DNA of 8,134 nt, taken from NCBI GenBank assembly GCA_023135215.1, contig JAGLTP010000206.1, positions 1 to 8,134 of the forward strand, given 5' to 3'. Positions 1,948-6,124 of this stretch are shown here, one piece after another. Every line of letters begins with the position of its first letter. Position 1 is the stretch's first letter. Below the pieces are notes generated by a model. The model saw nothing but the letters and a program-made list of their open reading frames with translations. It had not been told where the DNA came from and ran no database searches. Source of the DNA: Candidatus Heimdallarchaeota archaeon. GTDB lineage: Archaea > Asgardarchaeota > Heimdallarchaeia > Heimdallarchaeales > Heimdallarchaeaceae. The translations under genes and the position numbers were made by a program.

Positions 1948-4560
1948 CTAATCTTCTGATTTTTTTGAATCTAAGATACTGAAATCTAGTGTTTTTTGAC
2001 TAGAAGGATTGATGTCCTGCAATTCAACTCTCACACCAATTCTTTTCACATCTCTCAAAGCTTCCATAATGTAATGTTCTCTATCGATTTTAGAAGGATC
2101 TGTTAATGTGGGATGTTTTGCTCTTTTGTAGAGTGGTGAATTGCCTTCCAAAATAACAAATGGAAATCTTTCGTAATCTTTCCAGATTTCATCTACATCA
2201 AGTTCATTGTTAAAAGCGAAGTCTTCTAGAGCTCCTATGGCAGGAGTTTTACTCTTATAATCCTTGGGACTCCTTCTAATAGGACCTAAAATCATGGTTT
2301 TTTCAATAATTTTCTCTGGTTCCAAATCCTTGAATTCCAAGCACAATTCAATAACTTTTTGTCTTGCTTTCTGAATATCTCCATCTTCTAGTACAAGTTT
2401 GAGAGCAGCTGTTTGAACTTCTACAGCAAAAGGTGAAGTATCACTTCTGATTGCTTCAAAACCAACAATTATGAGTTCACCAGTTACAGCACTTACATAG
2501 CTGTATCTCTTCTTAGTTTCAGGAGCAAATACTATCCTTAGAGCTAAGTCAACAAACTGTAGATCCATTTGCTTGGGGAGCTTTGAAGCGAAATACTCAA
2601 GGAGATTATTAGCTTCAGGGACATCATCCAATGAAAATGCTTTCCCTTTGCTTGTTTTCTCAGCAACTTTGAAAACAGAGGCTTTGTCAGAAAGTTTAAC
2701 AAAAATACTATCAGTATCTCCATAAACTACTTGACATCTATTTTCAGTAAGATCTTGTGTCCATTGATCTACTCTTTTGATGTATTCTTTTGAAATGCTA
2801 GTAATTGCATTTGAAATCTCAGTATCATAAAAACGACTACCAACATAATTATGACTACCATACATGGAATTTGCTACAATTTTATACGCGTTGGATTGAA
2901 TTTTAAGTTTCTTAAGCTCCTTCTCTAATTTCTTATCTCGCTTTGATTTGGAAAAAGAACGAAGATAGGTCTCTAGTTCGTAAATTTCCTTCTTGACATT
3001 TTTTCTCTCTTCAAGAATCTGATTTTGCATAATCCGTAATCCCGTATCAGGTTTTGTTCGGAATTTGTTCATTGGAGCAGCAACAGATCCATCAAAGCTT
3101 TCTCCACCTATATTGTGACTGACCATAATTGATGGAAACATCGAAGTGAAATCCGCTATTAGTACAGCTTCATGCAACGTTCCTTTTGGAACGAGTACGA
3201 ATCCTCCCACAGCTAGAGATCTTGTACTCTTTCTAACTGATAACTCATCTCTTGTAGGTTCAGCTGGTATTATAGTGTCTTTATGATGCAGAATTCTGAA
3301 GAGTTGAAATTCTCCAAGATGTCTAGGTGTTGAGTAAATACCTTCAGATGGTCTTATTCCAACTAATTTCATAACTTCCAAATATTCCTGCATCCCCATT
3401 GCATAGAAAAGAGAATGAATGATGAAAGAATCATGATTACAAATATCTTCTAATAATTGTTTTTCTGTTTTCTTCTTGTTATTTAACATTTGAAACCAGA
3501 GGTCATTAATCTGTGAATAATCTCCTTTTCTTTCCGTATTCAAAAATTGACGAGCAAGGTCTTCTAAACCTTTCTTTCCTGTCTTTGTTCTAAGCCATCT
3601 TGTACTTTTTACTAAATCGTATGAGATGTATCCTGGAATTCTATAACCAAGATATCCCATAGAAGGTTTAATTTTAGCATTTTCTAGAGGGCAGATAATG
3701 TTAGGATCGATTCCTAAAGACTCCATTCTTGTGAAAAAGTAAGGTAAAGTAACTTGATTACCATTAAACGTGACAAATATTTCTGGTGATACATTATGAA
3801 TTGTTGCAATGACATTTTCTATCATTGTTTTCTCGCTTTCGTTCGTGTCATCTTCTAGAAGAAATGTTTTATTTTGAGTTTTGCCTTCTTCTTTTCCCCA
3901 ACTCAAACATATAGCAATGATTCGTTGACTTCTTTCAGCCATAACACTAGAGAAATTTCTAATTTTCTTGCCATCCTCTGATATTGAATTAATGGCTATA
4001 TTGAAACTCATAACAGTATATTGAAAATCTAGGTTGTCTATTTGTTCGATATCTTCATAGCTTACTTCAAAAACACGTGCGAATTGGTTTTCTGGTAATT
4101 CCTCGTAATTTTTAATCTTTATCCAATTGAGACCCTTGAAATTCGTATCAATTAAGAATCTTGAAATATATGATAAATCATTTTCATAGCTCTTAATTCC
4201 TTTTTCTTTCAAAAGTTTACTATATTTCATAATTCTCCAAGGGTTACGACCTAGAATTTTGTAGAGAAAAATTGGTTTGTTCTGATAATATCTATATTTA
4301 GTGATGGGAAAGTGATCTTGAATCCAATCCCCGAACTCTTTCTCTGTATATAAGAGACTCTGAATGGATTTTGTTGTTTCAGAAACATCATCAATGTAAA
4401 AATATGGGTAAAAACCAGTTACATGAATAACTATTGCTTCATTATCCTCTGTTTTTCCCCTGATACGAATAATAGGTTCCTCAGTATCTATTCCCTTCTC
4501 TTGAATAAAGAAATCTAAATCTACTATCAGACATCTTATTGGAGGGGGGTCTACTGCCAT
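1948..4560 (-). CDS. Family B DNA polymerase with degraded proofreading exonuclease site
   Basis: This is a DNA-dependent DNA polymerase of archaeal/eukaryotic family B (870 aa). The synthesis site is complete: motif A DFTSMFPSI (D470), motif B with K560, N564 and Y567-G568 (KIVANSMYG), motif C YGDTDS (D615, D617) and KKRY at 683-686. The N-terminal domain is family-like (GFYPYFYIDD, 49-58). The exonuclease fold is present but its catalytic residues are not: Exo I reads FNIA (N187, A189) for FDIE, Exo II has T271 for Asp (FNGNQVTLPYF), and Exo III has H382 and Y386 for Tyr and Asp (HSLFYA). The YxGG switch motif reads AVGG (450-453). Residues 518-563 form a longer, lysine-rich fingers segment than in Pfu polymerase. 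QKTLDFSIL (855-863) resembles a PCNA-binding box. ATG 4560 has GTGAT 6 nt upstream. The gene ends one base from the convergent regulator. Polymerase activity is expected and proofreading is not; a translesion or repair role is inference. Confidence 0.95.
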   Translation of the reverse strand: MAVDPPPIRCLIVDLDFFIQEKGIDTEEPIIRIRGKTEDNEAIVIHVTGFYPYFYIDDVSETTKSIQSLLYTEKEFGDWIQDHFPITKYRYYQNKPIFLYKILGRNPWRIMKYSKLLKEKGIKSYENDLSYISRFLIDTNFKGLNWIKIKNYEELPENQFARVFEVSYEDIEQIDNLDFQYTVMSFNIAINSISEDGKKIRNFSSVMAERSQRIIAICLSWGKEEGKTQNKTFLLEDDTNESEKTMIENVIATIHNVSPEIFVTFNGNQVTLPYFFTRMESLGIDPNIICPLENAKIKPSMGYLGYRIPGYISYDLVKSTRWLRTKTGKKGLEDLARQFLNTERKGDYSQINDLWFQMLNNKKKTEKQLLEDICNHDSFIIHSLFYAMGMQEYLEVMKLVGIRPSEGIYSTPRHLGEFQLFRILHHKDTIIPAEPTRDELSVRKSTRSLAVGGFVLVPKGTLHEAVLIADFTSMFPSIMVSHNIGGESFDGSVAAPMNKFRTKPDTGLRIMQNQILEERKNVKKEIYELETYLRSFSKSKRDKKLEKELKKLKIQSNAYKIVANSMYGSHNYVGSRFYDTEISNAITSISKEYIKRVDQWTQDLTENRCQVVYGDTDSIFVKLSDKASVFKVAEKTSKGKAFSLDDVPEANNLLEYFASKLPKQMDLQFVDLALRIVFAPETKKRYSYVSAVTGELIIVGFEAIRSDTSPFAVEVQTAALKLVLEDGDIQKARQKVIELCLEFKDLEPEKIIEKTMILGPIRRSPKDYKSKTPAIGALEDFAFNNELDVDEIWKDYERFPFVILEGNSPLYKRAKHPTLTDPSKIDREHYIMEALRDVKRIGVRVELQDINPSSQKTLDFSILDSKKSED
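1960..1997 (+). terminator. T-tract candidate terminator for the ArsR-like gene
   Basis: A run of seven T at 1960-1966 lies 14 bases past the regulator's stop, and a run of six follows at 1992-1997. Oligo-T tracts without a hairpin end transcription in many archaea. Both tracts lie inside the 3' end of the convergent polymerase gene, where they read as lysine codons on the minus strand, so they may be there for coding reasons alone. Confidence 0.4.
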
Positions 4561-4607
4561 CCATAAATCACTTTAGTTCATGAATTCTATAATCAAATAA
4601 TATCTTC

Positions 4608-4628
4608 TGAAATATTTAAACCCTTTTT
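4608..4628 (-). promoter_or_regulatory. TATA-like promoter of the family B polymerase gene
   Basis: On the minus strand the sequence reads AAAAAGGGTTTAAATATTTC: a TTTAAATA box with a purine-rich element just upstream, where an archaeal BRE sits. This predicts a transcript start near 4590 and a leader of about 30 nt before ATG 4560, long enough to include the GTGAT element at 4567-4571. The AAGGGTT part recurs in the divergent promoter at 4681-4687. Confidence 0.5.
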
Positions 4629-4680
4629 ATTTAAATTATATATAAATGAGTAAAGATTTTGATATAAAAAGCATCAAGTG

Positions 4681-4697
4681 AAGGGTTAAATTTTTAA
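4681..4697 (+). promoter_or_regulatory. TATA-like promoter of the 124-aa gene
   Basis: AAGGGTTAAATTTTTAA lies 33-49 bases before ATG 4730. An A/T-rich TATA-like core preceded by AAGGG predicts a transcript start near 4718 and a very short leader. An alternative TATA-like box, GATATAAAAA, lies at 4661-4670. The element resembles the divergent polymerase promoter in inverted orientation. Confidence 0.4.
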
Positions 4698-4729
4698 TAG
4701 ATAAAATTCTTTTAAATAATGTTGCCTAT

Positions 4730-5104
4730 ATGTCGTCTAAAAGATTACCAGCGGATGTCTATAAAAATCTTAAAAAATTAGAGCTTTCCGCAAACACAAA
4801 AAGTGGAACAATAGAGGAAACTATCACTTTAGAGAAACTACCAGATGATGATGATCCAAGACCTCATTATTGGTTTATCGTAATGCTCTCATTTGGGCAA
4901 AGAAGCGGCTATGTTTATGATAGATCAGGATTACATATTCCAGAGCCTGAAGCATATGTCTATAGTGTAGAGCTATGGAAATTTAGAGGCTCACAGATCA
5001 AAAGTGTTGAAACAAAAGCAAACAAAGTAAACTTTGATACATCTGTAAAAACATTCCAAACTATCCAAAAACAGATTACAGATGAAAATTTTAGAATTCT
5101 GTAG
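4730..5104 (+). CDS. Conserved-looking hypothetical protein, function unknown
   Basis: I do not recognise this 124-residue protein. It has no signal peptide, membrane segment, cysteine pair or nucleotide-binding motif. An N-terminal charged helix (residues 6-20) is followed by an acidic patch D39-D42 (PDDDDPRPHYWF), hydrophobic strand-like segments (48-55, VMLSF), a glycine/tyrosine-rich turn (SGYVYDRSG, 59-67), another strand-like segment (YVYSVELWKF) and a C-terminal amphipathic helix (about 104-120). This suggests a small soluble alpha/beta domain. It is likely a real gene: it starts with ATG, has a promoter-like element at normal distance, fills the space between its neighbours, and has no competing frame. 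It is divergent from the polymerase gene, and the shared promoter motif hints at co-expression. It ends 7 bp from the convergent membrane-protein stop. Confidence 0.75.
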   Translation: MSSKRLPADVYKNLKKLELSANTKSGTIEETITLEKLPDDDDPRPHYWFIVMLSFGQRSGYVYDRSGLHIPEPEAYVYSVELWKFRGSQIKSVETKANKVNFDTSVKTFQTIQKQITDENFRIL

Positions 5105-5686: not shown

Positions 5687-6124
5687 TTATGGTTTTTTTG
5701 CTAATTCATTTTCTCTTAAATATCTTTCAGCTGCTCTTATCACTTTCCGAGTATTCTCAAAAGTTAGCATTTCTAGAGCTTTTTCGTATGTCGCCCATTG
5801 AGATCCTATGTGTTCTTTTGAGATTTGTATGTCATCTGTTGATGAAATACCAATTAAATAAATAACAGTCTTCTTGATTCTATTTTGTCCTCGAGTGAAG
5901 TAGTAAGTAATTTTATGTTCAAACTCTTCTAATATTGAAATATCTTTGATGCCCGTTTCTTCAAATGCTTCTCTAAGCGCTGCTTCAATAACGGTTTCGT
6001 TCCCCTCAATACGTCCCTTCGTTAAACCCCATCTATTTGCCGTAACTCGACTTTTTCCGTAGTTGAGAAGGAGATACTTACCGGAGTTATAGATAACTAT
6101 ACCTGCCGATTGCTCAAGTTCCAT
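5687..6124 (-). CDS. Nudix hydrolase, bis(5'-nucleosyl)-tetraphosphatase-like (Ap4A hydrolase)
   Basis: This 145-residue cytosolic Nudix hydrolase is predicted to split Ap4A-type dinucleoside polyphosphates into NMP and NTP, as NUDT2-like enzymes do. The Nudix box is perfect at residues 37-59 (G37-x5-E43-x7-R51-E52-x2-E55-E56-x-G58). NUDT2-like flanking features are the opening SAGIVIYN, WGLTKGRIEGNE just before the box, FEHKITYYF and KTVIYLIG after it (lysine-lined strands), and HIGSQWATYEKALEML near the end. Length is normal for the family. ATG 6124 lies about 22 nt from a TATA-like TTTTAATA on the minus strand, so the message is probably leaderless or nearly so. It is first in an operon with the membrane protein. 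Substrate choice within Nudix enzymes is hard to fix from sequence; another nucleotide substrate is possible. Confidence 0.88.
   Translation of the reverse strand: MELEQSAGIVIYNSGKYLLLNYGKSRVTANRWGLTKGRIEGNETVIEAALREAFEETGIKDISILEEFEHKITYYFTRGQNRIKKTVIYLIGISSTDDIQISKEHIGSQWATYEKALEMLTFENTRKVIRAAERYLRENELAKKP

Follow-up and report, generated by a model that had tools for sequence, protein, structure and literature searches.

The stretch analysed here, called the window, comprises the 8,134 nucleotides of contig JAGLTP010000206.1 from a Candidatus Heimdallarchaeota archaeon (assembly GCA_023135215.1), and the gene of concern lies on its minus strand (1948..4560) and encodes a family B DNA polymerase of 870 amino acids with an intact polymerase site and a degenerate exonuclease site. 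The protein was matched by Pfam DNA_pol_B (E = 1.2e-35) and DNA_pol_B_exo1 (E = 6.7e-17), and its assignment to the B family was based on the DNA_pol_B domain together with motifs A, B, C and KxY. These motifs, described as intact in an earlier note on this DNA, were all recovered: motif A DFTSMFPSI (D470; 3127..3153), motif B KIVANSMYG (K560; 2857..2883), motif C YGDTDS (D615 and D617; 2707..2724) and KKRY (2503..2514), each on the minus strand. The catalytic Asp residues of the polymerase site were present in every row with data. The usual Tyr of motif A (steric gate) is Phe in the window polymerase (F475, window 3136-3138), as it is in 58 of 64 partly redundant rows of the window group (the window polymerase and its homologues), and is Tyr in relatives with an intact exonuclease site (exo-intact). 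The protein was modelled with confidence by AlphaFold2 (pLDDT 88.7, pTM 0.85). Homologues of 44-93% identity (P0001-P0042) originated, where the source was named, from Candidatus Heimdallarchaeota, Heimdallarchaeaceae or unspecified Asgard archaea, and the best relatives of solved structure were archaeal PolBs of approximately 21-26% identity. Eight NCBIfam models matched the polymerase, none at its curated cut-off; the score for NF004417 (NCBIfam DNA polymerase I) was 60.9 bits against a cut-off of 780, so that the protein was not classified as PolB1.

The exonuclease site was located with MAFFT alignments and two profile-profile alignments, one against 19 remote PolBs and the other against 11 exo-intact relatives from Heimdallarchaeia. 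In Exo I, Asp is replaced by N187 and Glu by A189 (3994..4002, minus strand), and the Asp of Exo II is replaced by T271 (3748..3750, minus strand), all as the earlier note had reported for its interval 3403-4002 (residues 187-386). Its reading of Exo III was incorrect. The Exo III Asp had been assigned to Y386, nine residues away from the true site, D377 (3430..3432, minus strand), where Asp is kept; the Exo III Tyr, indeed lost, had been assigned to H382, and its true position is I373 (3442..3444, minus strand). The MAFFT alignments and both profile-profile alignments agreed on D377 (LEDICNHD, against LEEYSLTD of the intact relatives), and in the predicted model Exo I was situated on a strand (183-190) and D377 on a helix (365-387). 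Compared with a proofreading-proficient PolB (Exo I DxE, Exo II Asp and Exo III Asp), three of the four acids are therefore lost and one is kept, instead of all four being lost, and the statement that no misalignment was involved holds for Exo I and Exo II, where MAFFT and profile-profile alignments concur, and not for Exo III.

Substitutions were counted over 43 rows, consisting of the window protein and 42 homologue clusters (90% identity), and those of Exo I and Exo II over the 42 sequences with the region, the omitted row (P0041) being a fragment; this count was preferred to a 64-row window-group table that is partly redundant, as a locus and a protein cluster in it may be one gene. Both Exo I acids were missing in 42 of 42 sequences, and sequencing error is therefore ruled out. 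The Exo II Asp was retained in 6 of the 42. At residue 377, all of the 43 rows had Asp except a single one with Glu (the residue was invariant in a 48-sequence alignment), whereas residue 386 varied among F, D, Y, V, I, G and H. The ratio of non-synonymous to synonymous substitution rates (dN/dS), estimated by NG86 with some pairs close to saturation, lay in eight window-group pairs at 0.05-0.14 for the exonuclease domain, compared with 0.045-0.073 for the polymerase domain. For the exonuclease domain it was 0.09-0.14 in three exo-intact pairs; two pairs of a paralogue with lost Exo I acids (exo-dead), described below, gave 0.053 and, from a small number of changes, 0.201. The exonuclease domain of the window group stays under purifying selection and is not in free decay. 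Replacement of both Exo I acids, as in exo-minus archaeal PolB of the D141A/E143A type, abolishes proofreading. Two of the four catalytic acids belong to Exo I, and as both are replaced, the window polymerase should be without proofreading by the loss of Exo I alone, even with only three of the four acids lost. The earlier prediction of a competent synthesis site without proofreading is thus supported by the homologues, the profile alignments and the mode of selection.

Relatives were collected by a genome scan, of which the best 80 of 255 were kept. In addition to the window type (L001-L021), these contained a second Heimdallarchaeia set (L022-L040) at 31-36% identity, and some genomes of the second set had a pair of copies: the first retained all four acids, whereas the second had N-x-K in Exo I but kept the Asp of Exo II and Exo III. 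All four acids were found in 11 of 12 rows of the exo-intact copies and in 14 of 15 rows of a further set fetched from the class, and the exo-dead paralogue read N, K, D, D in 8 of 9 rows; the remaining row was in each case without the Exo I region. The exo-intact relatives (L022-L028, L031-L033, L038 and L156-L170, with L032 and L170 probably representing one gene) belong to the same polymerase clade as the window polymerase and differ from it in keeping the four acids and the Exo III Tyr. The family was detected at E ≤ 1e-60 in 47 of 58 class genomes. Of the exo-dead forms, the window type was present in 21 genomes and the paralogue in 9, with one genome (G028) having both. This genome, which bears both exo-dead polymerase types (L143 and L171), is probably a mixed bin. 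In L135 and L145, one stop was flagged inside the matched stretch, and open frames with the usual motifs were present there.

In a tree restricted to the polymerase domain, the family of Heimdallarchaeia was monophyletic (100/100, with eight exo-intact rows), and the same was obtained in a wider quick tree (SH-aLRT, a Shimodaira-Hasegawa-like approximate likelihood ratio test, 100, with ten exo-intact rows). The window type formed one clade (99/96) with a weakly supported sister group (81/75), and the exo-dead paralogue clade (100/98) was sister to its exo-intact mate (99/98). A single origin of both exo-dead groups, which were defined by motif, although a separate quick tree had been seen before the test, was rejected by the approximately unbiased (AU) test (p = 7e-5). 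By this test, Exo I is lost independently in the window type and in the paralogue of the second lineage, at least twice in all.

A gene for an SRAP protein (PF02586, E = 5.8e-71) was located directly upstream of the exo-dead paralogue on the same strand in all seven loci with upstream sequence (L037:9095-9781; also L029, L030, L034, L035 (partial) and L183), one of the seven showing just the end of SRAP at the contig edge; two further paralogue loci start inside the polymerase gene. The SRAP pair is seen at L171 in G028, though that locus probably derives from a mixed bin. SRAP was found in 12 of the 58 class genomes, comprising 7 of the 9 with the exo-dead paralogue and 5 of the 49 others. 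SRAP proteins shield abasic sites. Genes for NurA and an Arf-type GTPase were present upstream of the exo-intact mate in eight loci (e.g. L025:7799-9913), and neither was present at L024, L026 and L028 of another exo-intact subclade.

The polymerase complement was examined in 17 genomes by a search with PF00136, and each contained a family member and a further, PolB1-like PolB. Two of the further PolBs were scored, both over the cut-off of the NCBIfam DNA polymerase I model (L086, 916.5 bits; L082, 1047.2 bits); one of the two had 1s5j as its best match, and the further PolB of G010 was closest to these two genes. The PolB1 rows carried all four exonuclease acids in 15 of 17 genomes, the other two being truncated, and PolD DP2 and a Y-family polymerase were each detected in 17 of 17. 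The second exo-proficient PolB or PolD that had been suggested as a check is thus found in the genomes of relatives. A long in-frame, intein-like insert was observed in the polymerase domain of PolB1 genes L106 (G005; at motif A) and L189 (G010; 1343-aa frame), and extra PolB-like genes closest neither to PolB1, PolB2 nor the window family were observed in window-type genomes (L193 in G023, L194 in G028 and L195 in G019).

PolB2-type genes are detected by PF00136, as controlled with two Sulfolobales genomes, and were present in G012 and G014, the only such cases among the 17 genomes and neither of them carrying an exo-dead copy, and in 14 further class genomes. The tally of PolB2 was made with a profile of Heimdallarchaeia PolB2-type genes against the 58 class genomes, in which PolB2 genes scored at least 345 bits and other matches at most 186, save smaller pieces of the same PolB2 genes. 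The 18 of 58 genomes in which PolB2 was found comprised none of the 29 that carry an exo-dead family copy, 12 of the 18 whose family copies are all exo-intact, and 6 of the 11 that gave no family match (0/29 vs 18/29; Fisher p = 1.5e-7, uncorrected for kinship). The PolB2-type genes L190-L192 and L197-L210 had motif C AGxxDS where found, and their hosts were without an exo-dead copy.

On the other side of a shared intergenic region with recurring A+T-rich, putatively promoter-like elements (4561..4729), the window contains a divergent gene for a protein of 124 amino acids (4730..5104, plus strand). This gene adjoined the polymerase in 21 of 21 loci reaching that side, and was present in 20 of 21 window-type genomes and in 0 of 37 others. 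Its product was predicted to be beta-rich, and from its linkage and predicted WGR-like fold it is a candidate partner of the window polymerase; sequence searches for its identity gave no result. A Nudix hydrolase gene (window 5687-6124, minus strand) lies close to the polymerase in 20 loci, the window among them. No RadA-type domain was found among the Pfam matches of the eight open reading frames of the window (three match nothing), genes outside it being partly annotated. Near its C-terminus, the window polymerase has a peptide resembling a PCNA-interacting peptide (PIP), QKTLDFSI (residues 855-862; 1975..1998, minus strand), which is degenerate in comparison with QMKLSKFF of the exo-intact relatives (L022 and kin); clamp (PCNA) binding through it is conceivable. 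PIP-like C-termini were also seen in the exo-dead paralogue (L030 and L035; QSALTLFA / QSRLSVYL).

Taken together, the window polymerase is probably a chromosomal enzyme specialised in damage tolerance, a translesion extender that resembles PolB2 and Pol zeta in its action and complements PolB1, PolD and a Y-family polymerase in the cell, because the intact synthesis site, the lost proofreading, the constrained domain, the co-resident accurate polymerases and the absence of PolB2 all match such a role; the SRAP gene beside the paralogue and the WGR-like gene beside the window polymerase lend indirect support. A Y-family polymerase would first insert a base at the lesion, and the window polymerase would then extend the mismatched or lesion-distorted primer end, which, without a working exonuclease, it would leave unremoved; faithful replication would be left to PolD and the exo-intact PolB1, and recruitment might be by PCNA or by the WGR-like neighbour. 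The window polymerase probably took the place of PolB2 in its lineage, and the pattern fits, short of proof, the idea that exo-dead copies may have displaced PolB2 in both lineages. The earlier suggestion of a translesion or system-specific polymerase therefore stands as the best reading; it was made without the exo-intact relatives, the second loss, the co-resident PolB1 and PolD and the exclusion of PolB2. A more extended scenario, in which a proofreading PolB was converted into a damage-tolerance polymerase by exonuclease loss twice in Heimdallarchaeia, displacing PolB2, once as a single gene with a WGR-like recogniser of breaks or nicks and once as a duplicate with SRAP, to give an independent archaeal counterpart of Pol zeta, is a tentative proposal and rather less likely than not to hold in full.

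Several observations weigh against the extender role. D377 is under strong constraint, which would be needless for a simply dead site. The exclusion of PolB2 rests on two lineages and approximately two events, PolB2 is also absent from 11 of the genomes that have no exo-dead copy, and the class genomes are metagenome-assembled and incomplete. SRAP occurs in five genomes without the paralogue and in only 1 of 21 window-type genomes (probably the mixed bin), so that this link belongs to the other lineage. The WGR-like call was made on a predicted fold with a best Foldseek E of 0.074, and no WGR match was found for the 124-residue protein in Pfam (28 members) or, by profile, in the PDB. The Pfam matches of the remaining window genes (Nudix, MFS, HTH and radical SAM) give no hint of DNA repair.

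Some of the same evidence would also suit a general gap-filling or lagging-strand polymerase with no lesion role, for which proofreading would be dispensable since PolD and PolB1 give fidelity: both are co-resident, the latter exo-intact, the C-terminus carries a PIP-like peptide, and one exo-intact subclade adjoins NurA, a DNA-end processing gene. Exo I was, however, lost at least twice, each time in genomes without PolB2, and the other exo-dead copy is linked to SRAP, so that this explanation is considered unlikely. An extender of primase products resembling Pol alpha, which also is without proofreading, is still less probable; although Asgard genomes are reported to have no identified Pol alpha and Heimdall-group primases to cluster with eukaryotic ones (PMC12770985), the nearest relatives in other Heimdallarchaeia are exo-intact, and no primase domain was found among the Pfam matches of the window genes, farther neighbours being partly annotated.

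The near invariance of D377 and the constraint on the domain could instead be explained by an exonuclease still active through a rearranged metal site formed by D377 and other residues, and position 191 is indeed Asp or Glu in 9 of 42 sequences. It is Asn in the other 33, the window protein included, and it is acidic in exo-intact relatives too, hence not a new ligand; residual activity of this kind appears about as improbable as a Pol alpha-like function. An artefact of sequencing, assembly or alignment, to which the misaligned Exo III of the earlier note might point, has a negligible chance, as the loss of Exo I is common to all 42 sequences (90% identity clusters and the window) and the concurrence of MAFFT and the two profile-profile alignments refutes it for Exo I and Exo II.

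Proofreading was lost repeatedly in one archaeal polymerase family, whose exonuclease sites range from intact through partly decayed to more decayed across lineages akin to the ancestors of eukaryotes, and the distribution resembles a displacement of PolB2, the known archaeal translesion polymerase. How Pol zeta-type enzymes arise can thereby be tested directly, since exo-intact relatives exist in nature next to two exo-dead branches of independent origin; two candidate partner genes, the WGR-like neighbour and SRAP, are named.

Archaeal PolBs have been divided into groups B1-B10 (PMC7544198). PolB3-type enzymes (Thermococcales Pfu, KOD and 9N) differ from the window polymerase in their intact proofreading site, the top archaeal rows being approximately 21-26% identical to it, and the window family branched apart from the PolB3-type rows used. 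Exo-dead PolBs of Thermoproteota (L072, P0045, P0047, P0049 and P0052) are like the window polymerase in their lost exonuclease motifs and complete YGDTDS, but group with Thermoproteota PolB3-type rows. Group B10 (Pol epsilon-like) is marked by a C-terminal Cys metal motif and a glutamate in motif C (PMC7544198); it was rejected for the window polymerase, in which the metal motif is missing, with no Cys in the last 120 residues. Motif C is VVYGDTDS, without Glu. A viral origin was likewise unsupported: a single-protein scan of viral contigs gave zero matches, and the 11 matches of an alignment scan were segments of 21-30% identity, save one 34-residue piece at 50%.

PolB2 is marked by an altered motif C with one conserved Asp and by a missing Exo III (PMC7544198), and its genes are linked to iRadA and PPB2 (PMC11791011). 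Sulfolobus Dpo2, a PolB2, has no exonuclease; it is faithful on undamaged DNA, poor at insertion opposite lesions and efficient in extending mispaired ends, and both Dpo2 and Pol zeta are extenders (PMC8764526). The contrast drawn in the earlier note, in which PolB2 represented the opposite state with a decayed polymerase site, was therefore misleading, since the exonuclease of PolB2 is lost too and the enzyme actively extends primers (PMC8764526, PMC7544198). Like the window polymerase, PolB2/Dpo2 is an exonuclease-dead B-family enzyme beside exo-intact PolBs, and in the 58 class genomes it never shared a genome with an exo-dead copy of the window family. It differs in motif C (HGIVDS or AGxxDS), as the window polymerase has a complete YGDTDS, D377 and a full-length domain; assignment of the window polymerase to PolB2 accordingly failed on motif C and on Exo III, where the Asp is kept and Tyr lost. 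A clade of the window type and PolB2 was rejected (AU p = 0.0063; quick tree with two PolB2 rows and long branches flagged), as was, in the same quick tree, a clade of both with the exo-dead Thermoproteota PolBs (p = 6e-48).

Pol zeta (REV3) shares with the window polymerase its membership of the B family, an exonuclease domain with an inactive site (PMC7544198) and an active polymerase site. Unlike Pol zeta, the window polymerase is without Cys in its last 120 residues and hence without a zinc or Fe-S domain there, and its similarity to REV3 is weak (PDB 7lxd, E = 1.9e-8). No account of the exo-dead window group was found in the literature searched, and Feng et al. 2025 (Nat Ecol Evol, PMC12680538) or the supplements of PMC7544198 may cover it. 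The general combination of a dead exonuclease and a canonical polymerase motif is already known, having been described for a root-near PolB2 (PMC11791011); within that literature, what appears to be new is the lineage, together with the recurrence of the loss, the mutual exclusion with PolB2 and the linked genes.

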